Virus record (IMG/VR): IMGVR_UViG_3300021087_000044
Coordinates: 1 to 33,057 of that record
DNA from: a virus
Reading direction: 5' to 3' (one strand)
DNA length: 33,057 nucleotides
In this document: piece by piece, positions 2,551-29,700 of the stretch
How the letters are laid out: every line of letters begins with the position of its first letter
Position numbering within the stretch: the first letter of the stretch is position 1
Notes under the pieces: model-generated
What the model was told of the DNA's origin: nothing
Database searches by the model: none
The model's input: the letters and a program-made list of their open reading frames with translations, nothing else
Made by a program: the position numbers and the translations under genes

Positions 2551-3337
2551 ATTTTACACCTGAAGGACTTTTATCAAGCTCATCAATTAAGTCGTCACTT
2601 AATTCATAATTGATAATACTATCTTTAGTATTCTCCCACCATTTAGATTCATATTTTAAATCAGTATCACCTATAAAACAACCGGGACTCCAAGGTGTTA
2701 AATTAAAATCATCTTCTAACATTTCATCGGACATTCGATTACTATGAATTACAAAAGCAAGAGTTGCTCTTAAACATTCTGTGCCTGCACAATGCCAACT
2801 ATAACCTTCTTTTTCAGATTCACCATGACTGAACCAATCAAAGGATTTTACATTCCAACCTTTATAATCTGGAATATCAAAATTATAACCCTTAGTATAG
2901 TTCTTATATCTAAAGAGCCCTTCACCTGTTTTAGACCAAGTAAATATTATATTTCTTCCTGGAACATCTGCGTTATGATGCCAGCTCAAATAACCGCCGG
3001 GAGGATATATTGCACTAAGAGCTTGTTTTCTTCCTGTTATTCTTGATCCTAAAGAAGTAGCAAGATCTGCCATTTTTGTATTACGATTTCTTTGATTTAG
3101 ATCTAATAGAAGATCTACTATTTTTTGATGCCAAGGAGGTCCTGGCCTAACTGTTTTTCTAAATGTACTTAAATAATTATCTGAAACAGCAGTTTTCCAT
3201 TCAATCCGATTTTGACGACCTTCGCGGGGTTTTAAACCTTTCAAATCTATACTATCTAAATATTCCCCAATTTCTTCTAAAATATCTAAAACACCTTGAT
3301 CACTACAAAAATTAGCAATATGTTCTGTATGTTTCAT
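2537..3337 (-). CDS. Probable 2OG-Fe(II) oxygenase-like protein
   Basis: A 266-residue protein. The core from residue 108 to 197 reads as a jelly roll: SAIYPPGGYLSWHHNADVPG, then NIIFTWSKTGEGLFRY, then GWNVKSFDW, then WHCAGTECLRATLAFVI. H120 or H121, H182 and R190 occupy the positions expected for iron and 2-oxoglutarate binding. The proximal motif reads W-H-H-N-A-D, not a plain H-x-D/E. This could mean an H-x-N variant, an H-x-x-D geometry or a non-catalytic relative. The C-terminal third (about 200-266) is acidic and Trp-containing with no recognised domain. It begins as ATGA overlapping the glycosyltransferase stop and ends 14 nt inside the next oxygenase, so the three enzymes form a coupled cassette. 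The assignment is structural-motif based and less certain than for its neighbour. Confidence 0.6.
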   Translation of the reverse strand: MKHTEHIANFCSDQGVLDILEEIGEYLDSIDLKGLKPREGRQNRIEWKTAVSDNYLSTFRKTVRPGPPWHQKIVDLLLDLNQRNRNTKMADLATSLGSRITGRKQALSAIYPPGGYLSWHHNADVPGRNIIFTWSKTGEGLFRYKNYTKGYNFDIPDYKGWNVKSFDWFSHGESEKEGYSWHCAGTECLRATLAFVIHSNRMSDEMLEDDFNLTPWSPGCFIGDTDLKYESKWWENTKDSIINYELSDDLIDELDKSPSGVKYGPR

Positions 3338-4137
3338 GCCCTTCCGTTTTGATATTGACTTTTAAATAATAAACACGAATAATCACGAAATACTATATCT
3401 TCTGGTTTCATATTTTCTCTATCAAAATGATAACCAATAATCCAATTCCATCTTGAATCACTTCCATCATTCCAATCATCTGTTTCAGGTGTACAGGGTG
3501 GATCTCCACCATATACCCAATGCCATTTTATATCAGGTCTATACCATGGATCATCCTGTCTAATAACACCCATCATTAAATGTAAAGGAAACTGATCCCA
3601 TCCTCTGGTTTCCCAATAAGGATATTTGCCATTCCATCTTTCGTCCCACTCTGCAACTTGATTCTTTTTCCAATTCCAATTTTCCCACCATTCATCCATA
3701 AAAGAAATCATTTTATCTGATTTTCTATATAAACACATTCCTCCATGTGGAACTTTTAATTTAGTCTTATTCCACCAGACCATGGCTGCTGCATAAGTTC
3801 TAATTTTAGTCCACGCCATATCATATCCATCTTTTAAACCTTTAAAAATTAAAGGTGCATCCGGATGGACACATACCATATCAGAATCTAAATAACATGT
3901 AATATCGAAAGGTGTATCTTTTAATGCTAATAATTTTGCGCGATTAGAATTAGGCATACCTCCACGGACTTCATCAAAAATATGATTTCCGGGGCAATCG
4001 ACCCATTTATCTTCTGTGAAAAGTATTACTGGATGTTCAGGAGCAAATTCTTTTAAACTATCTGCTAACTGTTGTGCCGCAGTATGATACGGTTTATGGT
4101 TAGTGGCTACTAATAAAAAACCTTCATCAGTTCTCAT
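3334..4137 (-). CDS. Glycosyltransferase, GT-A fold (DxD, GT8-like)
   Basis: A 267-residue protein from the ATG at 4137. The N-terminal strand (GFLLVATNHKPYHTAA) begins a nucleotide-sugar-binding Rossmann-like fold. NSNRAKLLAL followed by ITCYLDSDMVCVHPD (residues 79-93) carries the D84-x-D86 motif that binds the metal and UDP/GDP-sugar in GT-A enzymes. HGGMCLYRKS (131-140), GWDQFPLHL (179-187) and a late IIGYHFDREN (233-242) fit the acceptor loop, the DQ motif and the C-terminal metal-binding His of GT8-like enzymes. The frame stays open upstream to a TTG at 4167, but the ATG at 4137 begins right at the conserved first strand and has GAGG 9 nt upstream, so I prefer it. It overlaps the upstream gene by 11 nt. 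The likely role is glycosylating a phage or host surface molecule; the donor and acceptor are unknown. Confidence 0.82.
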   Translation of the reverse strand: MRTDEGFLLVATNHKPYHTAAQQLADSLKEFAPEHPVILFTEDKWVDCPGNHIFDEVRGGMPNSNRAKLLALKDTPFDITCYLDSDMVCVHPDAPLIFKGLKDGYDMAWTKIRTYAAAMVWWNKTKLKVPHGGMCLYRKSDKMISFMDEWWENWNWKKNQVAEWDERWNGKYPYWETRGWDQFPLHLMMGVIRQDDPWYRPDIKWHWVYGGDPPCTPETDDWNDGSDSRWNWIIGYHFDRENMKPEDIVFRDYSCLLFKSQYQNGRA

Positions 4138-4714
4138 CCTTAGGAACCTCATTAGCAACTTCTTCAATTGTTCCAGAAGTTTCTTTTACTTCTGATGTTT
4201 CATCTAAAAGGTCTTCTGCTTTTAAGGTTACCCTGATAATAGATAGAGTAATGAGTGAAGCAACTAACGCAGAAATTTCTGTTAATGATTTAGATTTTCT
4301 AATACGAGATCTTAAATCTCGATTTTCACTGTCTCTAACTTCTGGTATTTCAAAAGCTTCTAATTTTGCTCGAAAAAGAGATTCTAATTCATCAGCTGCT
4401 TTTTTTCTTTCAACTGCTTGTTTGTCTTCTCTTTTTTGAATTTGTTTTTCATGATCAGGCCTCGGCCCGCGGGCTTCTCTTTGAGCACGATGTGCATCTG
4501 TAAAAGAGTCTACTTGGTCGGTAGTAAATTTAAAAAAGAAATCTTTCCATTCTCTTGTTCCCTCAGCTGCCTGTCCGGAATATCGAGATTTATCTTCTCG
4601 TTCATATAAAATGGAAACTTCTTGTTTTTCACCAGTGCGCCATAATCCTTCAATCATTGTATCGTGACCCCACTCTTGTTCAGTGGCTTCAGCGACTTCT
4701 GCTGTTTCTGCCAT
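4127..4714 (-). CDS. Charged coiled-coil protein with one hydrophobic segment, unknown function
   Basis: A 195-residue protein. Residues 1-20 are acidic (MAETAEVAEATEQEWGHDTM). The middle (about 22-70) has aromatic patches such as REWKDFFFKF. Residues 75-142 are strongly charged and likely helical (RAQREARG, KREDKQAVERKKAADELESL). A hydrophobic stretch at about 146-164 (ISALVASLITLSIIRVTL) could be a single membrane segment or a helical core. The tail is acidic. The ATG at 4714 has GAGG 4 nt upstream (GAGGACATATG). It lies 30 nt after the second repeat protein and overlaps the glycosyltransferase start by 11 nt. I recognise no family. A fibre-assembly chaperone, a virion protein or a membrane protein are all possible. 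Confidence 0.6.
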   Translation of the reverse strand: MAETAEVAEATEQEWGHDTMIEGLWRTGEKQEVSILYEREDKSRYSGQAAEGTREWKDFFFKFTTDQVDSFTDAHRAQREARGPRPDHEKQIQKREDKQAVERKKAADELESLFRAKLEAFEIPEVRDSENRDLRSRIRKSKSLTEISALVASLITLSIIRVTLKAEDLLDETSEVKETSGTIEEVANEVPKDEN

Positions 4715-4744: not shown

Positions 4745-6580
4745 TTAGGCGTGTCTTTTCCAAAGACTATAATTTTGTGTTTCTAGAGTTGAAAATACCG
4801 TTATTCCAGTATATTGATTACTATAAAATCCAGAATATTGTCCAGAATATATTCCACCATATTGGCCACTATAAAAACCAGAATATTGAGCAGAATAAAA
4901 TCCTTCAAATCCTCCGGAGTATATGCCAGAAAAGGTCCCGGAATAAGTTCCAGAAAAGGTCCCGGAATATGTTGGGCCTTCTGAACTTGCCTGCGGGTTC
5001 GGAGTCTCATCCATAGATCCATAAGTTAGAGTATAAGCACCTACATAAGCGCCGGTATATCCACCCGCATAAGCACCCGTAAATCCTTGTGAATAAAATC
5101 CTTCATAATTTGTAGAATATATTCCTTCATATCCAGCTGAATATATTCCTTCATATGCTGCAGAATAAATTCCTTCATAACCTTGTGAATATATTACATC
5201 ACCAACTGTTGTAACCATATCATATACATTACCACAAAATACCCATGTGCCAGTTGCTGGAGCTGTATTACCTGTTACTAAACTATATTTACCAGCTTCA
5301 GCTGTCATTAAATGTTTAATCCAGTGCAAATGTATACCGGCATCATCAGCGGTATCTTGTAAGACTGCTGAATGCCCATAGGCTTGAACAGTATTTGCCT
5401 CTTTAGCTTGACTATTACTTTGATTATAAATTGGTAAGTATATTACTTCATCTGTTGCTGCGCGTGGATAACTTCCTACGGCAATATAATCGGCATTAGC
5501 ACCGGTCCAATGTGTAACAGAATTTGCGGCTCTTGCTTCTGTATTAGCATTTGATAAAGATCTTGAAGTTGACCATCCTCTAACCGCTCCTGATTCTTTT
5601 CTATAAAAATGATATGCAACGTTTGCTGTTCCGGAAGATGCAATTACTGTATCTGTATACCATGTTTCATCATGCCAAGAACTAGTATCTGAATCTCCTG
5701 CAGCAGTACCAATATGATAAGATCCAACAGTATTTGCAGACGAAGTAAAATATGCATTACATCTAGCAATAACAGGGCCAGCGGCCATTTCCGCGTCTAA
5801 TATTTCGTATACCTTATCACCGTGGGATCCACCTGTATTAGCGCCTAAAAATTCTACAGTGCTATCTAAATCATCAACATGTGTTGCATCCGCCGCGCCA
5901 TTAAAAGGCTTTGTTCCAACACATTGTTCTAATGAAAAGCTAGTTATAGTTACATTATTTGCTACTGGGTGATCACCTACTACATCTGGATCTCTATATC
6001 TTTCACCAACAGTTCCACATAAATCATAACCAGATGTATTAGAAGTACCAGATAAAGGTTTTACATGACCTCTCCAATCATCATGTGTTGCAGTTCCTTT
6101 TGTATAGGATCCCCATCTATTAAAAACTTCTGGAACTATTGAATCATCAATTTGGTCGTTAGTCATTTCTCTAACACCCCAACCCGCTACCTTTTCAAAT
6201 GTAATGCCTACGCTAGTTTGTCCTGTATAACTTGCTCCGGATGAATTTAAATATTTGTAAAATTCTGCGGTATTATCTTCTAATGTTAATTCTGCTGATG
6301 CACCAGTACTTGAAACAGATTCAACTTTAATCCATTGACCAACACCTAACATTCCATATTGTTGATGTCTAATAATAAGATAATCACCGGCAGCAAATAC
6401 ATCATCATATACCCCAGCTCCCGGTGTAGATGTAATAGTTGTAATTTTACCAATATTAGCAGAAGCACCAGAACCGGTTTCAGTTACCGATCCTATATAT
6501 AATTTTCCACTTTCTGTTGCGGCTAATTCTGTATTACTACCCAGTGGATAGATTCTCATCACTCTTCCATCAGTAGCCAT
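4745..6580 (-). CDS. Tyr/Gly octapeptide-repeat fibre-like protein (second paralogue)
   Basis: A 611-residue protein from the ATG at 6580. The frame remains open to a TTG at 6598, but the ATG forms TAATG with the upstream stop and has GGAAGAGGG 8 nt ahead, so the ATG is preferred. Residues 1-130 are a beta-rich N-terminus with the TESGKLYIGSV and FAAGDYLIIRHQQYG strands. Residues 136-156 carry an EMTNDQIDD helix motif shared with the upstream paralogue. Residues 440-455 carry APATGTWVFCGN. From residue 462 to about 590 the chain is nearly all repeats of the form [YF]xG[IFA]YSxx, split by a PNPQASSEGP linker. It ends in NYSLWKRHA. Layout and repeats mark it as a fibre or adhesin-like virion protein, expected to be exposed on the tail. 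Function is inferred from context only. Confidence 0.75.
   Translation of the reverse strand: MATDGRVMRIYPLGSNTELAATESGKLYIGSVTETGSGASANIGKITTITSTPGAGVYDDVFAAGDYLIIRHQQYGMLGVGQWIKVESVSSTGASAELTLEDNTAEFYKYLNSSGASYTGQTSVGITFEKVAGWGVREMTNDQIDDSIVPEVFNRWGSYTKGTATHDDWRGHVKPLSGTSNTSGYDLCGTVGERYRDPDVVGDHPVANNVTITSFSLEQCVGTKPFNGAADATHVDDLDSTVEFLGANTGGSHGDKVYEILDAEMAAGPVIARCNAYFTSSANTVGSYHIGTAAGDSDTSSWHDETWYTDTVIASSGTANVAYHFYRKESGAVRGWSTSRSLSNANTEARAANSVTHWTGANADYIAVGSYPRAATDEVIYLPIYNQSNSQAKEANTVQAYGHSAVLQDTADDAGIHLHWIKHLMTAEAGKYSLVTGNTAPATGTWVFCGNVYDMVTTVGDVIYSQGYEGIYSAAYEGIYSAGYEGIYSTNYEGFYSQGFTGAYAGGYTGAYVGAYTLTYGSMDETPNPQASSEGPTYSGTFSGTYSGTFSGIYSGGFEGFYSAQYSGFYSGQYGGIYSGQYSGFYSNQYTGITVFSTLETQNYSLWKRHA
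4805..5197 (-). repeat. Tyr-Gly-Tyr-Ser tandem repeat block, paralogue 2
   Basis: The coding strand repeats a roughly 24-nt unit encoding Tyr/Phe-x-Gly-x-Tyr-Ser-x-x, for example GYEGIYSA and NYEGFYSQ. This is followed by a stretch with period 4 (YSGTFSGTYSGTFSG) and a return to period 8 (QYSGFYSGQYGGIYSG). A non-repeated linker encoding MDETPNPQASSEGP divides the block near 5000. Units vary at codon level, so the array is old or under selection at the protein level rather than a recent DNA expansion. Confidence 0.9.
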
Positions 6581-8046
6581 TACGCAACCCTCTTCCAAAA
6601 TGTGTACGTTGCAGAACCTAATGATGCTAGCACTGTTAAACCTGTATATTGATTACTATAAATTCCAGTATATTGATTACTATACATACCAACATAAAAC
6701 ATACTATAAAATCCTTCGAATCCTGCTGAATAAATGCCTTCAAATCCTCCGGAGTATATTCCTTGGTAACCTTGTGAATATAATCCTTCATATTGGTTTG
6801 AATAAAAACCTGCATACTGGTTTGAATATTGTCCTGAATAAATGCCAGAATATACACCAGAAAATATACCAGAAAATATACCGGAATAGATTCCTGAATA
6901 AGTGCCTGAATATGTACCAGTATATGCTGGGCCTTCAGATGAACCTCTAGGGTTAGGGGATTCTCCGCCAGATCCATAAGTATGAATATAGCTTCCTTCA
7001 TAATCACCACGATAATCGCCCATAAACCCTGCTACATAAGTACCTGTATATGGTCCTTGGTAACCACCTTCATAACCACCTGAATATCCTTGTGAATAGA
7101 ATCCTTCATAACCTCGCGAATATATACCAAGAAACTGTCCCGAATATATACCAGTAAATTGTCCTGAATACATGCCGGTAAATTGTCCTGAATATAATCC
7201 TTCATATTGATTAGAATATATTCCTTCATATCCAGCTGAATATATTCCTTCATAACCTTGAGAATATATTACATTACCTGTATCCGTTAAATAATCTGTA
7301 TAACTTCCTGCTGCTGTCCATGTACCTGTTCCTGGTGCCGATGCTCCAGAAACCATTTCATAATGACCAATAGATTCAACATTAAATAAATAGTTTCTCC
7401 ATTCTGCTGCCAATTCTTTCATATCAGCATCAGTCATTTCCTGGACACCATCATTACCTGATCTATTATAAACAGGTCTTGAGCCAGAAGTGGATGTTGG
7501 TCCTGTTTTTCTCCACAATTTATAATCAGTTGAACTATCTGTGCCAGTTTGTCTATAAGTTTCTGTTAGAACATCACCACAATAAATCCATGTATCTGCA
7601 TCGGGCGCAGAAGTACCAAAATAATAACCACCAACGGGATAGGTAGTTGTTTTCCAATGATTAGCAACTCTAGCTAAAATAGTAGCTTGTAATTCAGCAG
7701 TAGTCATTTGCTGTAACTTGCCACCAGATGTAATCCATTTAGTGGGATAAACTACACTTGTAGTTCCAGCAGCGTTGGATTGCTCTTGTTGAATAGACCA
7801 GGAAGTTGTATCAAAATTACCAGCTGAAATAGGATGTTCTCCTACATCATCATTTCGGAGTCTATTATCAAACCCGCCGGCGTTCCCAGAGTTGTTTGCA
7901 TATGCAGTTACGTTACCTCGAACATTATATGTTTGATTAGAGGCGAACTCCTGCAAAACAAGCGGAACTATCATGTTGTCTATTTCTGTATCGGTCATTT
8001 GTTGGAGATCCGATCCAGTATTTATAACCTTTAACGGTGATGCCAT
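6580..8046 (-). CDS. Tyr/Gly octapeptide-repeat fibre-like protein (first paralogue)
   Basis: A 488-residue protein. The N-terminal half has three copies of an amphipathic motif: LQQMTDTEIDNMIVPLVLQ (14-32), LQQMTTAELQATILARVANHW (111-131) and VQEMTDADMKELAAEW (201-216). These alternate with TSAPDADTWIYCGD and SAPGTGTWTAAG strands, so it looks like a repeated domain of about 90-100 residues. Residues 258-355 and 375-470 are tandem [YF]xG[IFLM]YSxx octapeptides, separated by a GESPNPRGSSEGP linker. The C-terminus is YTFWKRVA. I recognise no catalytic motif. It follows a fibre-like gene and is coupled by TAATG to its paralogue. A receptor-binding or fibre-shaft role is plausible but inferred. 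A possible late promoter box lies just upstream. Confidence 0.78.
   Translation of the reverse strand: MASPLKVINTGSDLQQMTDTEIDNMIVPLVLQEFASNQTYNVRGNVTAYANNSGNAGGFDNRLRNDDVGEHPISAGNFDTTSWSIQQEQSNAAGTTSVVYPTKWITSGGKLQQMTTAELQATILARVANHWKTTTYPVGGYYFGTSAPDADTWIYCGDVLTETYRQTGTDSSTDYKLWRKTGPTSTSGSRPVYNRSGNDGVQEMTDADMKELAAEWRNYLFNVESIGHYEMVSGASAPGTGTWTAAGSYTDYLTDTGNVIYSQGYEGIYSAGYEGIYSNQYEGLYSGQFTGMYSGQFTGIYSGQFLGIYSRGYEGFYSQGYSGGYEGGYQGPYTGTYVAGFMGDYRGDYEGSYIHTYGSGGESPNPRGSSEGPAYTGTYSGTYSGIYSGIFSGIFSGVYSGIYSGQYSNQYAGFYSNQYEGLYSQGYQGIYSGGFEGIYSAGFEGFYSMFYVGMYSNQYTGIYSNQYTGLTVLASLGSATYTFWKRVA
6588..6596 (-). promoter_or_regulatory. Ribosome-binding site that fixes the start of the second repeat protein
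   Basis: The minus strand reads GGAAGAGGG here. Its GAGG core sits 8 nt before the ATG at 6580, and that ATG also shares bases with the upstream stop (TAATG). This argues for the ATG at 6580 over the in-frame TTG at 6598, which would begin within the site itself. Confidence 0.7.
6637..7275 (-). repeat. Tyr-Gly-Tyr-Ser tandem repeat block, paralogue 1
   Basis: A coding repeat with a 24-nt period. Successive protein units include GYEGIYSA, GYEGIYSN, QYEGLYSG, QFTGMYSG, QFTGIYSG and QFLGIYSR. A central linker encodes GSGGESPNPRGSSEGP. The next part shifts to a four-residue period (YSGIYSGIFSGIFSGVYSG), then returns to eight (QYEGLYSQ, GYQGIYSG, GFEGIYSA, GFEGFYSM). The arrangement mirrors the block in the neighbouring gene, linker included. 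Confidence 0.92.
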
Positions 8047-8066: not shown

Positions 8067-9599
8067 TTACGGTCCGAGTCTCGTTCCGGATGAATCATAT
8101 ATCCCAAAAGCTACCCATGAACTTTCTCCGGTTGCGCCTCCACTTTTTAAAATATAATTAGCGGCGGCAGTTCCACCTGCAGTAGTTTTAAATGTGCCGG
8201 AATGAGTCATTGTACCATCATGCACTACAGCAGCATCAATATCCAAATCACCATCCATATCTATTGTACTTGTAAAATGAGCGGCACCATTGCTCTTCAA
8301 TCCATCAGAAGCAACCCATTTTCCATCTGTACTATTATATAATATACTGTGTACAGTGGCACCGGGTATTATCATACCACCGCCCGTTGCTTGAGCATCT
8401 GTATGACATTTCGCGAAATCAAGCGATCCAGTTCCAGCATATCCTGTTAATGTAAGTGTAGATGTTGTCGGTACTGAATTCACTGTATATATTGCTTCTG
8501 CCGTTAATCCAGAATCACCTGCATCAGTAATAAAAACTTTATCGGCGACAGATAATCCATGTGTTTCAGTTGAATTATTTCTCTGAGATGTAATTGTACC
8601 AGAACTAGCATCTGATTGACTAAAGATATTACTTGCTAATCCAAAGACCATTGTTTTATCTTCGGAAACCATAATAGTTGTATCATTATATGTTCTGGTT
8701 CCTTGAACAACTAAATTACCTGTTATAATTACTGTATTAGAATCTAACGTCATAGATTCTGTTGCAAAGTTAACATAATCATCAACAGCTACATTAGCCC
8801 AAGCACCTCCATCTATATGCGTATTACCCTTTAAATTAGTCCTATTTGTGAAGTTTACAGTGCCGGTGACGTTAGCTGTGCCTTCAACGTGTAACATCGC
8901 ATCACCAAGAGTTGAACCAGTTCCGATTGCTAGGTTACCTGATGTGCCTAGATTCATTCGTTCGGTTGATTGCGAAAGAGCATTACCAGTAAAGAATCTA
9001 ATTATATCTTCGTCACTTGCGTTGTCTGTAGTAATTTTTGTATCAGCATCTTGATCCTGTGGTTCTGCTAAAGGATAAAATAATGTTCCTGTATTTCCTT
9101 CAAATCTGCTTAAAGTTGTATTCCATCTAATTGCGCCAGTTACGCCTGCTCTTTCAGCAGATGTACCGGAAGGCAATATAATAGAGGCAGACGAGTTTGA
9201 ACCTACAATACCACTAACATGTACTGTTCCCCATCTCCATGTACTATTACCGAAATTCTTGTCGCCATCGGTATAAGGTATCGTATCAGAATCAACTCTC
9301 GCAGTAATTGTTAAAGTATCTGCGTTCGTATCACCAATATCGGTATTACCTTGTAAACTTGTTACTTTTGTTACCGTTAAGCCTGAATGTGTGAGTACAT
9401 CACCACCGATGACTGCCGACGCTTTAATTCCTATACCACCATTTGAAGTAATTGCACCTGTTGTATTAGATGTTGAATTGGTAGTATTAGAAATGTGTAA
9501 TACGTCTTTTCCACCCTGTGTTTGAGTGTACATCAAAAGTTGATTTGTACGTGTTCTCCATAAATCAAACGTATCTGATAACGCTACATTAGCTGCCAT
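8067..9599 (-). CDS. Tail-fibre-like structural protein
   Basis: A 510-residue Thr/Ser/Gly/Asn-rich, beta-dominated protein with no catalytic motifs. Near residues 90-200 it has strands typical of phage fibre proteins (YTDGDKNFGNSTWRWGTVHV; GAIRWNTTLSRFEG, the pattern common in marine phage fibre proteins). At about 290-330 it has GNLVVQGTRTYNDTTIMVSED, resembling the V.GTTT.VNSTTV.V.DK signature of cyanophage fibre proteins. The C-terminus contains GYAGTGSLDFAKC and ESSWVAFGIYD. The ATG at 9599 has AAGGA about 5 nt upstream and overlaps the preceding small gene by 11 nt. The likely place is a short or long tail fibre attached to the baseplate; which fibre cannot be said. Confidence 0.75.
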   Translation of the reverse strand: MAANVALSDTFDLWRTRTNQLLMYTQTQGGKDVLHISNTTNSTSNTTGAITSNGGIGIKASAVIGGDVLTHSGLTVTKVTSLQGNTDIGDTNADTLTITARVDSDTIPYTDGDKNFGNSTWRWGTVHVSGIVGSNSSASIILPSGTSAERAGVTGAIRWNTTLSRFEGNTGTLFYPLAEPQDQDADTKITTDNASDEDIIRFFTGNALSQSTERMNLGTSGNLAIGTGSTLGDAMLHVEGTANVTGTVNFTNRTNLKGNTHIDGGAWANVAVDDYVNFATESMTLDSNTVIITGNLVVQGTRTYNDTTIMVSEDKTMVFGLASNIFSQSDASSGTITSQRNNSTETHGLSVADKVFITDAGDSGLTAEAIYTVNSVPTTSTLTLTGYAGTGSLDFAKCHTDAQATGGGMIIPGATVHSILYNSTDGKWVASDGLKSNGAAHFTSTIDMDGDLDIDAAVVHDGTMTHSGTFKTTAGGTAAANYILKSGGATGESSWVAFGIYDSSGTRLGP

Positions 9600-9822
9600 C
9601 TTTATCCTTTTCTAAAACTTTCATTAATAATTTTTCTATCTTATCCACAGTATTACTTAATCTATCAAGCTCTGCCCTATGCTCGGCTCGTTCTTTAAGA
9701 GCATTCTCAGCAGCAATCCGGGCTGATCTATGTCTATTTAGGGCAGTTTTATCTGTGGCTAAAAGTGCCTTTGAGTGTATGTCCCTGACAAAACGAGGGT
9801 CCTCGGTTTGTATCTTATTCAT
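9589..9822 (-). CDS. Small coiled-coil protein between baseplate and fibre genes
   Basis: A 77-residue protein. The N-terminus (DPRFVRDIHSKALLATDKTA) is followed by a long predicted helix with heptad-like hydrophobics (AENALKERAEHRAELDRLSN, then VDKIEKLLMKVLEKDKDG). Its ATG lies inside the last codons of the DUF4815 gene (8-nt overlap), and its stop lies 11 nt inside the fibre gene. Similar short proteins occur at this place in marine T4-like phages. I know of no assigned function; a fibre trimerisation helper or assembly chaperone would fit the size, coil and location. Confidence 0.72.
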   Translation of the reverse strand: MNKIQTEDPRFVRDIHSKALLATDKTALNRHRSARIAAENALKERAEHRAELDRLSNTVDKIEKLLMKVLEKDKDGS

Positions 9823-12800
9823 CCAACGCTATTGCTCTTAAATCTTTCAATTTAGGAACTTTTAAGGTACTAGTAGAAGTTATACATAACTTAATTGAAA
9901 ATGTTTTAAACTTCTTATAATTAGTTCCTGAATCATCAGTATAATCAATTGTATCATTTGGTGATTTAAATAAAAATTCTTTATAATCATCTTCATTTAA
10001 AGAATGGACAGAAGCTGCTGTTTCTTGTGATAATAAGATATAATCTCTATCATCAAATGCAGAGGGGTCATCGGGACTTAAAACTTTTGCATATGCATAT
10101 ATTTTAGCACTTTCTGGTTTATAAGCCTGAACGATAACTTTAATATCTTCTGCTTCAAAACCATCCTCAAGGTTAACTTTCCTTGTAATATATTTAGCAT
10201 TGATGGGTCCGCCTTGAGCATCTAACTCACTACTTACAACAACATTTGCGTAATTGGCACCAGTATGTCCTGTATCTGATATTGTTATTGTTGGGGTTTC
10301 TGTATAACCCGAACCGCCATTAGTAACTGTTGTGCCCGTAATGGTTCCGGCTGACAATGTTAATGCAATTTCTGCACCTGTTCCATTTCCGCCAGAAACT
10401 GTAGCTACTGCTGAAGATGTATAACTTGCTCCTGCATTAATAATATATATATTCGAATTTGCAAGAGCTGCATCATCAACATCATTTTCAATTGTAGTTA
10501 AACTAAATCTTGAAGTATCAATCAATGGCGAAACAAATTTTGAGGTAGATCTCATAGTAATATGTGCACTAAAACAATTTGCTGTATTAGACTGCATCAT
10601 CATTCGTTCTTCAAGATTGACATTTTTATCTTTTATACCTGTTACGTAATTCGTTGTTGAATATCCACCAGATGTATTAGTAGTCTTGAATGACAATCCA
10701 ATTGTTGTACTATCAAAATCCATCACTGTTGTATTAAATTTATATGCATCTATATAAACATTAGATGAGGCCCTATTTTGACTATGTGTATTAGACATCA
10801 AAATTATGTTGCCTTGATTTTGTGTTGTAAAATGACACCTATTAACTCTCATCATTAATGATTCACCTGGAGATATTTGTGGCATACCTGCATTAGTTGG
10901 TAAATACATTGTTTCAATATTTGGTTGCTTAGGTATTCTAATATTAGGACTGATAGATGCATCAGTTAAAGGACTTAATCCTTGTATAGCTGTCCATAAC
11001 TGATACTCAGAACTATTTGAAAGAATAACCAATGCATATTCATCACCTGTTAAATATACTGGTGCAGGAAATTCAAATGTTGTATAATGAGATGTATTTG
11101 AAGCGTCCGGAGCAGTTACTATAGTATTAATTTCTTCTGGTCTTTTTACTGCTTCACTGTGCGGAATAATAGTTCCTGAACTTGGATATCCATTAATCAG
11201 TGGTCTAAGTTGAATCGTTATAGGTAATTGTGGTGTTGAACTATTAGCTGTTGCTTTTTGTCTAAACCACAAATCTACTGATTTAATAAAAGCTCCTTCA
11301 GGATAATTACTCTTATTAACAATAAATGTTTGAGCCATTGGATCCATCCACTGAGATGAACCTTCAATTCTACTAGTAGGACTTGTTATTACATTTTCAT
11401 TAGTGACATCTTCTCTTCGTGAAACGGAAGGCCTAGTTGAAATCGAAGTTGGTTCTCTGCCATCTATTAAACCTCTTGCGGCGAAAGTACATTCTGCTGC
11501 CATAGTTGAATCTGGAACAGAATTTGTTTCTTGATCGGTAACTCTTAATAATCTTTCACCTGATTTGTGAGCTCCTGCTGGTAAAGAAAGAATACCTGCA
11601 AATTCTCCGGCTTGATTAGTCGACATATAATCTGCATGCCCTTTTGTAGGCACAGTTCTATTTGATACAACTCCGGAAACACCACTATTAGATGTAAGAA
11701 TAGTTGTTGAACCTGGTGAAAAAGTTTGATCTAAATCAGCATTATCACCATTAAGATCTAATGCTTTAACTACTTTAATATATGCTGTTGCGGTTCCACC
11801 TGAAGTAGTTAATTGTGGTAGTATAATTTGTGCGACGTTCGAACCTTCAGATATGGTTTCACCCAACATTAGATGTTTAGATGTATCAACACCATTAATT
11901 GTTAAGAATGGCATAGGATAAACGTTTGCTGATACATTATCCCCATCAAAAAATACATATACATTTGTTGTTGGCTTTAATCCTCTTGCTACAAAATATA
12001 TTCTATTATCATCTGGTGTATATTGAGAACCAAGTAAGTGCGCCTTCATCCAGAATGTCATGGAAATATCTGCTACTTTATTTCCTAATGATCTTTTAAT
12101 TGAATCTGGAATATTTTTTGAAGTTATACCTTTTCGTGTTTGTCCTTTGTTAATAAGATTTGCTTTTCTTATACCAACAGAAGTGGCACCAGCATCCTTA
12201 ACACTTATTTCTGGTTCTGGATTAATTTGTTCACCATGCCAATTTTTAGTCCAATTATCCCATTGTGATCCATGACCGGCACGATAATTTCCAAACTGCC
12301 AATTATCATTAACACCTTCAATATTAACTAATACTTCAGGACGGGATTCAGTATCATACCATGTATCTGAATCAGGATATGTTTTAATACCACCAGTAAA
12401 TTGAGCTAAACCAAAAGGATTAACTCCTTTATAAGTACTTGCTAATGGTTGATTTACTAAATTAGCAGTTGTATAAGGTAATGTTATTAATTCTTGTGCT
12501 GGAAAATGCCATTGAACATTATTACTAGAACCACCAATATCGGTCATCTGGAAAGTATAGTTATCAGTTTTAAATGGGGGTCTTAATTCATTCTTTTCAA
12601 TATCAATTGAATTCCTATAATCATTGTTTATAACATCCCCAATACCGTGACCTTTGAATCCGTCTACTAAAATACCATTTTTAAATCTATCACCGGCAGG
12701 ATTAAAGAGCGAGTCTTGTGTTGATCCACCAGAAATAGATGAAGCCGCGGCTTCTTTTTCTAACATTGATAATGCAGTATAATATTCTAAATTTTCTATT

Positions 12801-15800
12801 CTCTTTTCTAATTTACCAATATCTCTCATTGTATAACGTCTATTATCAATATACTTTGTTTTAATATCTTGAGTATTAAAAGTATATGGAGGAATAGTTA
12901 ATGTATACAACGTCATAGAATCGTCGTCATCCGGAGGAGCAACTGGTTCTAATGCTGGTACACCTTTAAGTACATTAAACTTCCTATCTTTAGAAAGGGT
13001 TAATTTATCTTTACGGCCCAAATAGTATTTAATATTAAATTGAAATGTATATTCGGGGTCTGGTGTTCCGCCAGCAGATCCCAACTGTGAAGAAGGAATC
13101 GCTTCATTATTAGATGTCATATCATTTGTAGTATTAGAACCTTTGTCATTATTAGCAGAATAACGTGTAGGTCTAAAATCTATACAATCTCTTAATTCAA
13201 TTTCTTCACCTGTTGTAGGACTTGTATATTTTGGAACAGCAGAAAAATTAAATCCTTTTCTTTTAACACCTTGTAGGTCATAATGGTATCCTGTATTTGA
13301 ACTTACGTCGGCATATGATGCAATTGAAAAATATCCAGCAAGCGCATCTTGAATTGGTGGTGTTAAAGCAGGATTACTAAAATGATCACAAATTATTAAT
13401 AGTTGTCCAGCAGGGGCTGGTTGACCAGGCTTTAATAAAATGGAAGCCCAATCATAATAATTATCTCGTTGTCCGTTATCTAAATCATATCTAGAAGTAG
13501 CATCTACGGCAGTTGTTGATGCAGCATCTTTAAGTGCTGTTATCATTGCTGAACTTACCGGTTGCGCAGCGTCTCCAGAATCAATTATATAAGCTATATT
13601 AACAACATCGGATATCATCAAGGTATCTTTTTTACCGGCCTTTTTATTAGGCTCAGCAATATGGACTTGACCTTTAGAAATAGTTGTATTTGAAGCTATA
13701 ACAGTTGTATTTCCAACTGTTAACGTTTTTGATCTTGGTGTTGCATTAGCTGTTCTAATAGTTGAAAGTACTTCTACTTGATATGCGCCACTTTTTGTAT
13801 TTAAATTTAATGTTGTTTGAGTAGCACTATCAATAGTTGCTGTTCTACCTGTGGATGCATCAAAATTTAATAACTGCCCTTCAGTTAATGCTTCTCCTGT
13901 TACATTATCAATCGGTGGATTGGCGGCATTGTCAATTGTTTTAACAGCTACTGAAAACAATTCTTTCGCAGTTGATGCAGACTGTGACCCTGATCCTATA
14001 AAAGAACCGGTTGATGTCGATACAGTTGTTGTTCCTGCCATCGGCACAGAAATTGATTGAAATGTTTTATAGGTATAAGTAACCCCGTCGGGTATAGTTG
14101 CCAAAGGTGAAAATGGTAATTGATATAATAATGTATTTTTACTTACGCCTGTTAATTGGGCTATTCCCTCAGGATCATTATTAAATCTTGATAATTTATC
14201 AATATCTGCAGATGTCGTTTTTACAACATAAGTTGTGTTCGCAGCAGTTAATTGATTTATATTTCCGTGCTTTACAACCATCGATCCTAAATCTTGAAAT
14301 TTAAAAGAAATAGTAAATGATGAATTTGATAATACCTTTTGTGATAGAGCAGTATTAGCTTTAACAGTATGTTGTGAACCTATAGCAATATATTCAGCAA
14401 TAGAAACTGTATCACTTGAAACAGTGGTACCATTCGTGGTATTAACAGTTACTACTGCACCTTTATATGCTCCATTTGCATATGATGTAAGTGCTGCTGG
14501 AACACCAATAGTTGTTAAATCATCACCTTCACCAGATACTTCACCGGAGATAGTTTTATCTAAACGTATGTCATATATTCGAGATGAATATACTGAATGA
14601 AAGTGTGTAGTATTAGATGCAGTTAGATCTGCTTGTTCCCAATCAAACGATCTTATTCTTGCTGTTCCCATCTTCGTTTGATTGTATTTTGTTAACGCAT
14701 TAGTATCATTTGACATAGCATTAACAGAAGCGGAAGGACAACAATGCAAATCCACCAATTCATGTTTGGATATATCGAAAGTACCTAAAACATTTTTAAG
14801 ATACAAAGAATTGCCATAATCTGATGCAACAATATAATCTGATACATCTGCTGTATCACGACCTCTTTCTACATCAATATATTGTGTTGCAATATTTTCA
14901 TATTCATAGCCTTTTACATAAGCTTTACCTGCTTCTAATCCGGCAGAGATTAAAGCAGTATTTCCATCTTTATGATTTCTTAATTGTATTCCAAATGGTC
15001 TTACAGTATATGAGCCTGATTCATCAAATGTTCTTCTGGCTAATGTTTTTTCAAGTTCCCCATAAATTGGAAACTTGGTTTCTGAAACTTTAACACCGGA
15101 TTCTAATCTAACTAATTCTATAAATTTTTCACCAGCATATTCTGTAAAAGTACTAGAAGTAGTTGTGACAGTTCCATCTGTAGCGGTAGTTGTTGTTGCT
15201 ATATCTAAAGATGTTAAAGTCAATGCCATTTTAAATCTATCAGCACCCGGTGCCGCATAGTTAGCAGTACCCTGTGCATTATCTAAAATGGACGAATCAT
15301 CATCTGTTTGAACAATAGATTCAGTAACTGTTAAACCAACTCTTTTTGTTGGAAAACCGCTATACTTATCTAAGGCAATAGTTTGGGCAGGATTTAAAAC
15401 AAAAAATCCACTTATATAAAAACATCCTTCTGTAATACTTGCAATAGATGATGTATTTTGAGCATACTGCACTCCAGAAGCACCACTTAAACTAACAGTA
15501 TTAGCTTGATATGGTGTTGTTTCTAAAGTGGAAATTGTTTCACCATCTAAAAAATTTCCACCGCCTAATTTAGAAAAAATTAAAGTAGGTTGATCCGATA
15601 CAGTAAGAGCTTCTGCTCTAATAACTAAACCTTTAGCACCTGATGTGCCTCCAGTAATAGTTTTACCTTCAAAAGAACCAACGGTCACAGTTGCAGCATC
15701 AAAAGCCGATTCTAACTTTAAAGAATTAACTTGTGTATTGAGTGTTACATCTCCACCAAAAACTTTACTACCTTCTTTGAAGATATGATCTCCGAACCTG

Positions 15801-15952
15801 GTAACTTGCTCTTGCAAGATGGTTTGCATTTGGGTAAGTTCCCTTGCCTGAACTGCGAAACCAGGTCTGAATAATATCCTATGAAAGCTTTTTGCTCCAT
15901 CAAAATCATCATAGTATGGTGCAATGTTAAAATTTGTTTTTACGCCTGACAC
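9815..15952 (-). CDS. DUF4815-family baseplate/tail structural protein
   Basis: A 2045-residue protein. The N-terminus matches the DUF4815 signature closely: RILFRPGFAVQARELTQMQT at residues 25-44, then QVTRFGDHIFKEGSKVFGG. Near 1317-1337 is YFVARGLKPTTNVYVFFDGD and near 1536 DPMAQTF, both features of large marine phage structural proteins. A glycine-rich GxGY beta module lies at about 1840-1890, and the protein ends LKDLRAIALDE. The start is GTG: in-frame stops (TAATAA) precede it directly and AAGG sits 6 nt upstream, so no other start is possible. It lies between gp8 and the fibres, where T4 has genes 9-12, so it probably forms the outer baseplate or a fibre-attachment arm. I do not assign a T4 gene number. 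Confidence 0.82.
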   Translation of the reverse strand: MSGVKTNFNIAPYYDDFDGAKSFHRILFRPGFAVQARELTQMQTILQEQVTRFGDHIFKEGSKVFGGDVTLNTQVNSLKLESAFDAATVTVGSFEGKTITGGTSGAKGLVIRAEALTVSDQPTLIFSKLGGGNFLDGETISTLETTPYQANTVSLSGASGVQYAQNTSSIASITEGCFYISGFFVLNPAQTIALDKYSGFPTKRVGLTVTESIVQTDDDSSILDNAQGTANYAAPGADRFKMALTLTSLDIATTTTATDGTVTTTSSTFTEYAGEKFIELVRLESGVKVSETKFPIYGELEKTLARRTFDESGSYTVRPFGIQLRNHKDGNTALISAGLEAGKAYVKGYEYENIATQYIDVERGRDTADVSDYIVASDYGNSLYLKNVLGTFDISKHELVDLHCCPSASVNAMSNDTNALTKYNQTKMGTARIRSFDWEQADLTASNTTHFHSVYSSRIYDIRLDKTISGEVSGEGDDLTTIGVPAALTSYANGAYKGAVVTVNTTNGTTVSSDTVSIAEYIAIGSQHTVKANTALSQKVLSNSSFTISFKFQDLGSMVVKHGNINQLTAANTTYVVKTTSADIDKLSRFNNDPEGIAQLTGVSKNTLLYQLPFSPLATIPDGVTYTYKTFQSISVPMAGTTTVSTSTGSFIGSGSQSASTAKELFSVAVKTIDNAANPPIDNVTGEALTEGQLLNFDASTGRTATIDSATQTTLNLNTKSGAYQVEVLSTIRTANATPRSKTLTVGNTTVIASNTTISKGQVHIAEPNKKAGKKDTLMISDVVNIAYIIDSGDAAQPVSSAMITALKDAASTTAVDATSRYDLDNGQRDNYYDWASILLKPGQPAPAGQLLIICDHFSNPALTPPIQDALAGYFSIASYADVSSNTGYHYDLQGVKRKGFNFSAVPKYTSPTTGEEIELRDCIDFRPTRYSANNDKGSNTTNDMTSNNEAIPSSQLGSAGGTPDPEYTFQFNIKYYLGRKDKLTLSKDRKFNVLKGVPALEPVAPPDDDDSMTLYTLTIPPYTFNTQDIKTKYIDNRRYTMRDIGKLEKRIENLEYYTALSMLEKEAAASSISGGSTQDSLFNPAGDRFKNGILVDGFKGHGIGDVINNDYRNSIDIEKNELRPPFKTDNYTFQMTDIGGSSNNVQWHFPAQELITLPYTTANLVNQPLASTYKGVNPFGLAQFTGGIKTYPDSDTWYDTESRPEVLVNIEGVNDNWQFGNYRAGHGSQWDNWTKNWHGEQINPEPEISVKDAGATSVGIRKANLINKGQTRKGITSKNIPDSIKRSLGNKVADISMTFWMKAHLLGSQYTPDDNRIYFVARGLKPTTNVYVFFDGDNVSANVYPMPFLTINGVDTSKHLMLGETISEGSNVAQIILPQLTTSGGTATAYIKVVKALDLNGDNADLDQTFSPGSTTILTSNSGVSGVVSNRTVPTKGHADYMSTNQAGEFAGILSLPAGAHKSGERLLRVTDQETNSVPDSTMAAECTFAARGLIDGREPTSISTRPSVSRREDVTNENVITSPTSRIEGSSQWMDPMAQTFIVNKSNYPEGAFIKSVDLWFRQKATANSSTPQLPITIQLRPLINGYPSSGTIIPHSEAVKRPEEINTIVTAPDASNTSHYTTFEFPAPVYLTGDEYALVILSNSSEYQLWTAIQGLSPLTDASISPNIRIPKQPNIETMYLPTNAGMPQISPGESLMMRVNRCHFTTQNQGNIILMSNTHSQNRASSNVYIDAYKFNTTVMDFDSTTIGLSFKTTNTSGGYSTTNYVTGIKDKNVNLEERMMMQSNTANCFSAHITMRSTSKFVSPLIDTSRFSLTTIENDVDDAALANSNIYIINAGASYTSSAVATVSGGNGTGAEIALTLSAGTITGTTVTNGGSGYTETPTITISDTGHTGANYANVVVSSELDAQGGPINAKYITRKVNLEDGFEAEDIKVIVQAYKPESAKIYAYAKVLSPDDPSAFDDRDYILLSQETAASVHSLNEDDYKEFLFKSPNDTIDYTDDSGTNYKKFKTFSIKLCITSTSTLKVPKLKDLRAIALDE

Positions 15953-26779: not shown

Positions 26780-29700
26780 TTACCAACCCTCATTAGACAA
26801 TTTGTCCAGGTGATCATAAACCTCATCCGCCTGAGCATTAATATCAGCCAAATAATCAAGAAATTTATTTCTACTATCCTGTATCTTATCTTCTTGTGCC
26901 TTAACTTGTTTTTTGCCAATTGATAACTCAAAATCCCATTCATCGTGATATAACAAGACTTGATACGGGGAGTCACCTCCTGCTTGAATAGCAGAATCAA
27001 TTGCTATATGTGTATCATCAATAACTTCCTGAATATACTTAGTAAACGTTCCTGTATCAAGGGTTACAATTAAAAGATCATCTTGTGAAACACCAATAGC
27101 ATTCCAAGTTTCTGCTACAGATTCTTGTTCTTCTAATAATATTTCTACTCCGCCTCCGCCAATAAATCCTTCTGATAGTGGGACAGTTCCATTTATTTCT
27201 ATAATAGTACCAAGCGGATATTCATTAACATTCCGTGGTTTCCCTTCGAACGCTGTACCGAACCGTGATCCCCCTTCATGATTAGGTATATCTTTATAAT
27301 TACCATTTACTTCAACTTCTGAATAAGTTGAAATAGTATTTGCCTTGGCTGCAAATTCACGTAATCTATATCCTGGGTGATAATAATGTGAAGTATTTGC
27401 TCTATTTTCAGGCTTATACTTATATTCAGTTTCATTATTATCACTTAAAGTTACATCATAAGGTAGTGCTTCTTCTATATCTGGTTCAAATGCTCGATCA
27501 AGAATAGCCACTGTTGTATTTGCCATATATTCTACAGATCTTGTTTGACCAGAAGCTGGATTGAGAAGAGACAGAACAGTAATAGTTGTATTTGGTTTAA
27601 CTCTTCTTTGTCCACCTTCAAAATCATCAACTTCATCTATAAATTCACCTTTTAAAATAAGTAACGATTTACCTTTTGATCTCAAACTACCAGGTTCTGT
27701 GTCTACATCTGGTGTCTCTTGAATCATTGTAATTTCTATTGTAATCAACATTTCTTTGATTCTTAGAACTAACAAATCTAATTCTTCTATATCTACATCT
27801 CTTAGCTCTACAAGACCATCATAAGTAGCTTTATTTGCACCATGTGTAATAAACGCTGGTGGCGATTCCAATGGATCCATTGCTCCATAAAGAGGAACAT
27901 CCATAATCTTCTTTCTTAAACTCGCTGCACCAGGTGAAGCACCATTTAATTTAACTAAAATATCACCTAAAGCCTTTTTAGTATCTTTCAAAAAATCTAT
28001 TTTAGCTTTTCTAATTTCTTCAGGAGTTCTAGGATCCCCAATTATAACTTCTTCATCTTCTCCTCCAGCTTCTCCTTCTCCTTTCCAAAATGCTTCATTA
28101 ATCACATCTTCATCATCCAGATTTTTTATTATAGGAAGTTCACCCGATGTATAATTAACTAAACAGGTATAATTAACACCTTTATAATAAATTTTATCGC
28201 CGGCCATATATGTTTTTGTTTCATCAAAAACCGGAGTTGCTAATGCTGTAAGCTTTTCTGTTCGCTTTGCTTCCTCTGCTGTTTCTTGTCGTAAACCAAT
28301 TACCAATGCCAAAGCTTCAATAGATTTAATTAATGGTCCTCCTGTTGGTCCACCACCTAAAAAACAAACGCCGGCACAAAATTTTAAATTCTCAGGTGGC
28401 TTATCAGGTCCTCCTGCGGATAACAATCTCTCTCTAAAATTTGCTGTTCCTCCTAATCGGGGTGCTAAGTATAATGTATATAATCCAGTTGCGGGAATAC
28501 CTACAGCAAATAATTCTAATATTTCTTCAATTTCTTTACTGAATGCTTGAAGTTCATCCATCTTACCATCTAACCATTTTATAATAGGATCAAGAGTTTT
28601 TTGGTAGCTTTTAATAGTTGCGAATATACTTCTTACATGTGTTTCAGTAGTATCTAAAATTGCTCCTAAAGGTGGAATCAATTCTTCTAATCTTTTACCT
28701 CTCCAATCTGGTTTTTCAGGTAAAGCATCTGAATAGAATTCATCTACTACTTTCCCGACTATAAGTTCACCCTCAGTGATTTGAACATATTCCTTATCCT
28801 GTCCACCTGGATTACCTTTGGCACTTGTTGGATCATCTATTGGATTGTTATGTTTATCACTGGTTCCTGCTGATGAAGTAGCAGGTAGCGCTTCATAAAC
28901 AATATCACCTTTTTTAAATTCTTGACCAGGTGAAAGGTATGCAATTTCTAATTCTTGGTTTTGATAAGGAACCAAATTTCTATCTATTTTTATTTCTTGA
29001 TGATTCCTTTTAACCTGTGATTCTGTTAAAGGGGTATTATGGGTATCTGCTTTATGGCCTACTGTTTCTCTATCTTCAATTACCATTTTGTCAGTCGATA
29101 TAACTTTAGTGACTCTAGCTACTGCTTCGCCCACATTTGCTTTCAGAACTTTTTCTGTTTCTTTAGGGTCCATAATATCAAATTGGCCCATAGTATCATC
29201 TTGTTCCACATAAGTTTTTACTGCAGTCGAAGTATCTGGTGCTGGTGGGGTATTTAAATTTACAGAAGAAGCAGTAATAGTTTTAGTACTTACCCAAGAT
29301 ACTTTTATTGTATGTGTTTCCGGTGGATTTAATATTTTTTGTACATCTTTCAGTAAAGTATTGAAACTTTCTAAGTCAATAAATTTATTAAATGTTTGTA
29401 AAATACCTGCAAAAACATCAAAGGAAGGGGCCCCTATTATAACAATAATTCCACCTACCGTTGCAGAATTTGAAAATATTGGTCGCCCTGACAGATAATA
29501 ATCTTCTGACAATAATTGTGTTGTATCGGTTGTAAAAGCTGTATTACCTTTAGGGACATCATTTTTATCGTCAAAAGATCTATCAATTGTTTGTAAAATA
29601 CCACCTGGAGTTAATTGTGTTAAACCTAACTTCTCGTTAGCATATACAAAGACATTCTCTACAGTTAAATCAACTTCTTTAGGGTTACCATCTGCATCTT

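Follow-up and report, generated by a model that had tools for sequence, protein, structure and literature searches.

What structure could be formed by the Tyr/Gly-rich repeats with which two adjacent genes of a T4-like phage end? The genes, here called B and A, lie on the minus strand of the 33,057-base virus record IMGVR_UViG_3300021087_000044 (hereafter the window), and an earlier reading made from its letters alone (the sequence-only reading) had described them as virion genes carrying octapeptide arrays, whose residue spacing suggested a repetitive beta fibre or beta-spiral shaft with aromatic faces. We observed that a non-repetitive tip, absent from that reading, splits each array into two matched arms, and that among relatives the lengths of the arms, the register breaks and the types of unit mirror each other on either side of the tip. 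This symmetry fits a two-stranded antiparallel hairpin and not a one-way beta-spiral, and we give a probability of roughly 0.78 to the explanation that each array is a long two-stranded antiparallel beta-hairpin grown from a hairpin of the carrier domain. The proposal of a beta fibre with an aromatic/Gly face is supported by the period of 4, by strands predicted in the relative L077 and by the tail/baseplate gene neighbourhood.

Tetrad arrays divided by a tip

Gene B (6580-8046) encodes 488 amino acids (aa) and gene A (4745-6580) encodes 611 aa from an ATG at 6580, which shares one base with the gene B stop codon; the nearest gene A orthologues likewise begin with MATDGRV or MAADGKL. In a scan of these two members, neither matched a family in Pfam or PHROGs at E <= 0.01. 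The arrays occupy 6649-7266 in gene B and 4814-5191 in gene A, and the interval first proposed for them, 4805-7275, was roughly right but takes in the non-repetitive carrier of gene A (5192-6580). Tyr-Gly repeats are indeed present in both genes: strict [YF]xG[IFLM]YSxx units number 16 in gene B and 9 in gene A, as against means of 0.017 and 0.0125 and a maximum of 1 in 2000 shuffles of each whole protein, although the earlier counts of 25 or more and about 15 octapeptides were too high. Residue identity autocorrelation in the arrays of A and B has maxima at 4, 8, 12 and 16, and the repeat unit is therefore a tetrad, [YF][TSA]Gx, with the octapeptide of the window made of one YxG[IFLM] and one YSxx tetrad; the period of 4 that had been noticed in part of each array is the true period. 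By this measure there are 47 tetrads in B and 27 in A. In 2088 tetrads from family members no longer than 800 aa, the first residue is Y (79%) or F (21%), the second T (40%), S (29%) or A (14%) and the third G (78%), with T, S, A or N the commonest at the fourth.

Each array runs through arm 1, a tip (PNPxxSSEGP), arm 2 and a cap (YxxWKRxA), with 24|23 tetrads in the arms of gene B and 14|13 in those of gene A, divided by ESPNPRGSSEGP and DETPNPQASSEGP, respectively (Table 1). Both arms of gene B have an octad zone at the base and a pure YxGx zone adjoining the tip, and 20 of its 23 mirror positions hold tetrads of the same T/t type (permutation p 0.0045). Furthermore, in the orthologues of the window genes changes in arm length hit both arms together: gene B orthologues have either 24|23 or 21|20 tetrads, the shorter ones being without 12 residues per arm near the tip, and gene A orthologues range from 9|8 to 17|16.

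Matched arms among relatives

Relatives were collected by a degenerate DNA scan of IMG/VR, which yielded at least 119 stretches, a few of them plainly chance; the loci that carry relatives are labelled with L-numbers (L001 is Phage C48C1 and L176 is S-RIM2). From 175 loci we obtained 140 distinct open reading frames (ORFs) with arrays, of which 40 without a cap match and 12 that were incomplete were dropped, leaving 88 complete ORFs with a cap in 61 clusters. Thirty clusters are simple, that is, have at most one large gap, and in 24 of these arm 1 is longer than arm 2 by exactly one tetrad, with differences of -26, -22, -6, 0, +2 and +12 in the other six. The same rule was kept for an out-of-sample set, the best 80 of 203 loci found via the carrier domain. 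Its 57 ORFs comprised one without a cap match, 24 resembling earlier proteins and 32 falling into 25 clusters, 24 of them simple, and the difference was again exactly +1 tetrad in 17 of these 24, compared with 1.1 expected. Five of the seven misses are cases where a break was mistaken for the tip, and these are mirror-exact in the break test described below; the others are L192 (-6) and L231 (0).

Several larger members have more than one tip. Basal stems of equal length enclose several tips in L108 (53 and 53), L134 (28 and 28), L110 (33 and 33), the 561-aa protein of L092 (33 and 33) and the 683-aa protein of L102 (10 and 10), and stems of nearly equal length are found in L058 (115 and 114, enclosing three 3|2 hairpins) and in the 1379-aa protein of L102 (127 and 125). 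In L108 the inner breaks are not mirrored exactly. The 683-aa ORF of L102 carries a 12-residue insert, FTHINVTLRSVN, in one arm only, and its 6+17 tetrads still match the 23 opposite.

Mirrored register breaks and unit complementarity

In many relatives the register is broken by six-residue units that replace tetrads and come in two kinds, YxG[ADPS]Kx (K) and YxGTSx (T; TG in L219). Break positions are exactly mirrored in 19 of 23 clusters, as against 0.55 expected by random placement and four that fit a translational order; L160, L052, L116 and L051 failed the test. In an enlarged set the breaks are mirrored in 34 of 37 clusters, the exceptions being L165, L160 and L051. An odd number of break units occurs in one of 38 clusters, and such units are absent from 78 of 134 ORFs. 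We also considered that the arms might be a recent tandem duplication, and the unit order does resemble direct copies, but this was rejected on the break positions, which fit the mirror in 19/23 clusters and translation in 4/23.

The two kinds of unit are complementary. A K unit lies opposite a T (Thr-Ser or Thr-Gly) unit in all 84 classifiable pairs, six further pairs holding other units, where random dealing of the units over both arms would give 52 +/- 5.5 K:T, 16 K:K and 16 T:T pairs, and a direct-order reading of these units yields 38 K:K, 36 T:T and 10 K:T. When pairing is restricted to strict mirror positions, 84 of 87 pairs are K:T and nine units are left unpaired. The order of units along arm 1 varies among the relatives (K T; T K; K T K T; K K T T; K K K T; K K T T K K K), and the complementarity is therefore not one inherited pattern that was copied.

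Tetrads without Gly behave similarly. In L126 (40|39 tetrads) all nine non-Gly tetrads of arm 2 lie opposite one of the 11 non-Gly tetrads in arm 1, and the opposed residues are Arg and Ser/Thr in eight cases and Arg and Asn in one, with the sides swapping. Among 953 mirror pairs from 57 loci, non-Gly lies opposite non-Gly in 110 (62 +/- 5.6 expected) and Arg/Lys opposite a polar residue in 27 (13.6 +/- 3.1 expected). The longest inverted DNA match in the gene B array is 10 bases, and the mirror order is not one that would arise from an inverted DNA repeat.

A structure of two antiparallel strands held in fixed register would require just these features: equal arms, paired insertions and deletions, mirrored breaks and pairs of unlike units. 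They argue against both a one-way shaft and a disordered linker, since neither predicts mirror-symmetric features. A one-way beta-spiral or triple beta-helix shaft, in which the tip would be a mere hinge, has a precedent in the S-RIM2 cyanophage protein with its one-way [VL]xGN tetrad array, and four clusters of our own sample have a one-way last run only; arm matching in both samples together with the mirrored breaks rules against it, and the equal arms, paired indels and K:T pairs would be left unexplained, so that we regard this alternative as strongly disfavoured, with a very small chance of being right.

The low-complexity composition, together with the low AlphaFold2 confidence within the arrays, would be in keeping with disordered Tyr/Gly sequence or with a by-product of DNA repeat slippage. 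Yet the ratio of nonsynonymous to synonymous substitution (dN/dS) in eight ortholog pairs is 0.10-0.25 for the arrays, similar to the 0.11-0.29 of the carrier parts, and the arrays are thus under purifying selection at the protein level. The register is held over hundreds of residues, and slipping direct repeats would not yield complementarity. On the strength of dN/dS and mirror complementarity we reject disorder or slippage, the most improbable of the explanations weighed here.

Structure prediction and the possible pairing of the arms

AlphaFold2 modelling of L077 from 23 diverse sequences reached a mean predicted local distance difference test (pLDDT) score of 80.5, with about 90 in the carrier. 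The model has strands at 235-255, 275-287, 290-303 and 323-351, which lie near one antiparallel register around residue 289, and the arms would therefore prolong carrier-domain strands. A Foldseek search of PDB and BFVD returned no solved or predicted viral structure at E <= 0.001, and profile searches of solved structures (profiles A1 and A2) found nothing better than weak matches to proteins that are not fibres (best E 0.054). A second look with VIA-align gave Z 2.2-2.4 to T4 gp11, a baseplate protein at the interface with the short fibres, and to the counterpart of gp11 in a Klebsiella phage (Z 2.4 over 45 residues of the L077 carrier for T4 gp11), a likeness on which we do not rely.

The strand positions bear on whether the two arms that pair belong to the same chain. 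Phage fibres are usually trimers, and the mirror and complementarity data fit pairing between different chains, as in a strand-swapped needle, or two solenoids side by side, just as they fit pairing within a chain, and cannot separate the two. A relevant example is the T4 gp37 needle, described in PMC9659904 as six-stranded with three chains intertwined at the head domain. Against this, the strands predicted in L077 for the arm 1 base and for the cap sit where one carrier-domain hairpin would need them, and we find interchain pairing or paired solenoids unlikely. For the hairpin, both strands likely, if not provably, come from one chain, and the arms would be hydrogen-bonded beta strands.

Points that weigh against the hairpin

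Several observations do not sit easily with the hairpin. In the window itself, the gene B mirror shifted by two tetrads agrees nearly as well (17/21), because the octads alternate, and the gene A T/t mirror pattern is not significant (10/13, p 0.13). The six-residue breaks are absent from the window proteins, the pairing code being drawn from the relatives. The AlphaFold2 model of window gene B, built from 10 close sequences, was unusable (pLDDT 27.9), and the L077 array reached a pLDDT of about 40; the L077 model was read for strand positions. The presumed placement of the A and B proteins in the virion derives from gene position.

Across the family, 31 of 61 clusters are not simple, having several large gaps or no gap. 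Three simple clusters, L153, L051 and L152, do not parse as matched arms, nor do the C48C1-type giants (L001, L069, L098, L107, L139), L160, L100, L124 and L129, and L121, L143, L115 and L132 have a short one-way last run only. Equal stems were not seen in our parse of L100, L152 (143 and 111), L129, L124, L160, L153 and the C48C1 type. One-residue bulges in L104 are confined to arm 1, and among the 57 loci tetrads with Arg/Lys opposite Arg/Lys are not depleted (11, compared with 9.9 expected).

Proposed architecture of the fibre

The carrier would consist of repeated domains of about 100 aa, with the loop of the last beta-hairpin stretched into a very long hairpin. Arm 1 would run outward, the chain would turn at the tip, and arm 2 would come back in register and end in a cap strand (LWVR/FWKR) closing the carrier domain, such that tetrads of the same rank k, counted from the base of each arm, would face each other. 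An extended strand would then have one face of alternating Tyr and Gly and another of mainly Thr, Ser, Ala or Asn. Two-residue register breaks would be accommodated as opposed pairs, with YxG[ADPS]Kx on one strand and YxGTSx (or TG) on the other. At full extension, with about 0.33 nm for each residue, the shaft would measure about 32 nm in B and about 18 nm in A.

From their position among structural genes, we infer that A and B are virion genes whose products probably form a fibre on the tail or baseplate. Gene position together with the alike tips of A and B suggests that the tip, displayed by the fibre, may contact a receptor or the host, and the fibre may be glycosylated by the neighbouring transferase.

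More broadly, the family may represent a class of phage fibre with a code that resembles RNA secondary structure. Its stems would be matched in length, its bulges paired and its branch points provided with several tips (for instance 33 tetrads, several short hairpins and 33 tetrads, or 115 tetrads, three 3|2 hairpins and 114), and two letters would complement each other, a Lys unit with a Thr-Ser unit and an Arg tetrad with a Ser/Thr one. Evolution of shaft length and branching would proceed through compensating changes in both strands, and the transferase of the cassette would glycosylate the finished fibre. We hold this wider proposal with belief and doubt evenly balanced.

Table 1. Coordinates of the array genes and of the downstream cassette in the window
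Feature	Positions	Strand	Remarks
Gene B N-terminal carrier part, 260 aa	7267..8046	-	repeated domain with GTW and LW.K motifs; carrier of L077 modelled, pLDDT ~90
Gene B arm 1	6979..7266	-	24 tetrads; octads at base, pure YxGx near tip
Gene B tip YGSGGESPNPRGSSEGPA	6925..6978	-	
Gene B arm 2	6649..6924	-	23 tetrads; order mirrors arm 1
Gene B C-terminal cap YTGLTVLASLGSATYTFWKRVA	6583..6648	-	stop codon 6580-6582
Gene A N-terminal carrier part, 463 aa	5192..6580	-	
Gene A arm 1	5024..5191	-	14 tetrads
Gene A tip YGSMDETPNPQASSEGPT	4970..5023	-	resembles gene B tip
Gene A arm 2	4814..4969	-	13 tetrads
Gene A C-terminal cap YTGITVFSTLETQNYSLWKRHA	4748..4813	-	stop codon 4745-4747
Helper gene, 195 aa	4127..4714	-	conserved behind hairpin genes
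Nucleotide-diphospho-sugar (GT-A type) transferase	3334..4167	-	DxD motif
Third cassette gene, 266 aa	2537..3337	-	conserved WH.N and H.A..R motifs

A conserved cassette downstream of the arrays

The array genes are followed by a conserved cassette. Among 69 of the 86 clusters, those with at least 2.5 kb downstream, the helper gene (about 150-195 aa) was found within 6 kb in 68 and within 100 bases in 62, and the GT-A type sugar-nucleotide transferase within 6 kb in 67. Where 5 kb or more of downstream sequence is available (28 clusters), the third cassette gene follows in 27. We also took the reverse direction with 87 loci picked by the transferase, many on contigs of earlier samples and 19 too short upstream: an array gene lies just upstream of the transferase in 66 of the 68 loci with enough upstream sequence, and one of the two misses, L304, has an array protein in the enlarged pairing set. 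This sample added 11 new clusters, of which 10 have equal basal runs; L309 has 2 and 1. In the phage collection the helper and transferase were found in C48C1 only.

Both Asp residues of the DxD motif are invariant in 17 transferase members, five of which match PF03407 at E <= 0.01; relative to the cut-off of 22 bits, L126 scores above (30.9) and L060 below (19.8), and the window copy has no Pfam match. Thr or Ser occupies position 2 in 69% of tetrads and would offer glycosylation sites. On the basis of gene neighbourhood, we propose that the transferase glycosylates the fibre.

In the third cassette protein (L138 8111-8767 and relatives) the residues W, H, N, H, A and R are invariant; it has no recognised family, no Pfam oxygenase family being matched among 16 members. 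A role as a 2-oxoglutarate (2OG) oxygenase, for which the H and R motifs seen by eye are the sole hint, is not supported by that result or by an hhalign probability of 2.3 to the window oxygenase. In window-type phages a 2OG-Fe(II) oxygenase gene (1963-2550 in the window) comes next.

Genomic neighbourhood

Pfam and PHROGs profile searches identified a head-tail connector module and a baseplate module on the minus strand of the window, with proteins like T4 gp5, gp6 and gp8, one further wedge subunit, which we take to be gp25, and a 2045-aa phrog_358 protein. A gp8-like gene, the phrog_358 giant, a gene for a 77-aa structural protein and a gene for a 510-aa protein (8067-9599; without a family match, fibre-like by eye) precede genes B and A in that order, and a head-tail adaptor gene comes after them. 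Genes for gp8-like proteins were found in 9 of the 10 records tested for them. The function of the PHROG to which the 2045-aa protein (9815-15952) belongs is not assigned; a phrog_358 protein also lies ahead of the hairpin gene in L060, and an ORF of similar length occupies that place in L126. Elsewhere in the baseplate module, an 1130-aa protein (26780-30172) has no PHROG match and a weak match to the carbohydrate-binding module PF02839 (25.5 bits, cut-off 26.2).

A cyanobacterial host was considered and found no support, the psbA family being matched in none of 10 records, though these records may be fragments. No relatives in cellular genomes were confirmed in two scans of cellular genome contigs.

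Comparison with known systems

The needle of the T4 long tail fibre protein gp37 has iron-binding His motifs. No sequence similarity between gp37 and the hairpin family was found; the latter has the Tyr/Gly tetrad, arms from 4 to more than 100 tetrads long with breaks at mirrored places, a pairing code and, in some members, multiplied tips. The likeness would lie in an antiparallel beta fibre: the T4 needle is six-stranded and bears a receptor-binding head, the structure being that of Bartual et al. 2010 as described in PMC9659904 and PMC7291167. By analogy, the hairpin proteins may work most like this antiparallel needle, their membership in that family being unproved. The chaperone tentacles of Alteromonas phage A5 gp9 extend, as we propose for the arrays, as a long beta-hairpin out of a folded body, but the longest modelled in PMC10579305 measures about 88 Angstrom, and they belong to chaperones and not to a fibre. 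The tentaclins, as presented in PMC10743442, are different from the hairpin family.

Related in sequence is CDS0201 of Phage C48C1 (OQ984149, Kyanoviridae), which shares a homologous carrier, [YF]xGN arrays, the same cap and the downstream helper and transferase, whereas it is 3347 aa long and has several arrays with inserted domains and Arg-rich octads, and matched arms were not seen in its parse. In this protein (L001 19983-30026) the [YF]xGN tetrads are mixed with octads of the form YTRxRxSx and with inserted non-repeat domains. Indeed, tblastn of a 50,697-record phage collection with gene B, L052 and the C48C1 N-terminus found a carrier relative in the C48C1 record only, and with gene A and L077 no relative in that collection. 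A match in Enterococcus phage Riverwalk, an unannotated tandem repeat, was taken as chance.

The S-RIM2 structural protein (L176 4408-10146), encoded ahead of neck genes, is alike in its period of 4, Gly at position 3 and place in a structural gene module; it differs in having aliphatic instead of aromatic residues and another carrier, with no mirror arms or LW.R cap seen. We found no family or solved structure for the tetrad repeat or matched arms, and no paper on them among the matches listed, in literature that covered few subscription journals or preprints.

Implications

If the hairpin explanation is true, these proteins would be a fibre whose strands can be paired from sequence alone, a rare instance of a code that can be read from a fold. 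Metagenomic sequence would then suffice to predict how long the shaft is, in what register it pairs and how it branches, and the fold would offer a tunable beta-ribbon scaffold. The tail module of metagenomic T4-like phages contains a large family for which our analysis suggests a function and both window members of which lack a Pfam or PHROGs match. Furthermore, the conserved cassette points to a possible dedicated protein-glycosylation step during phage fibre assembly.

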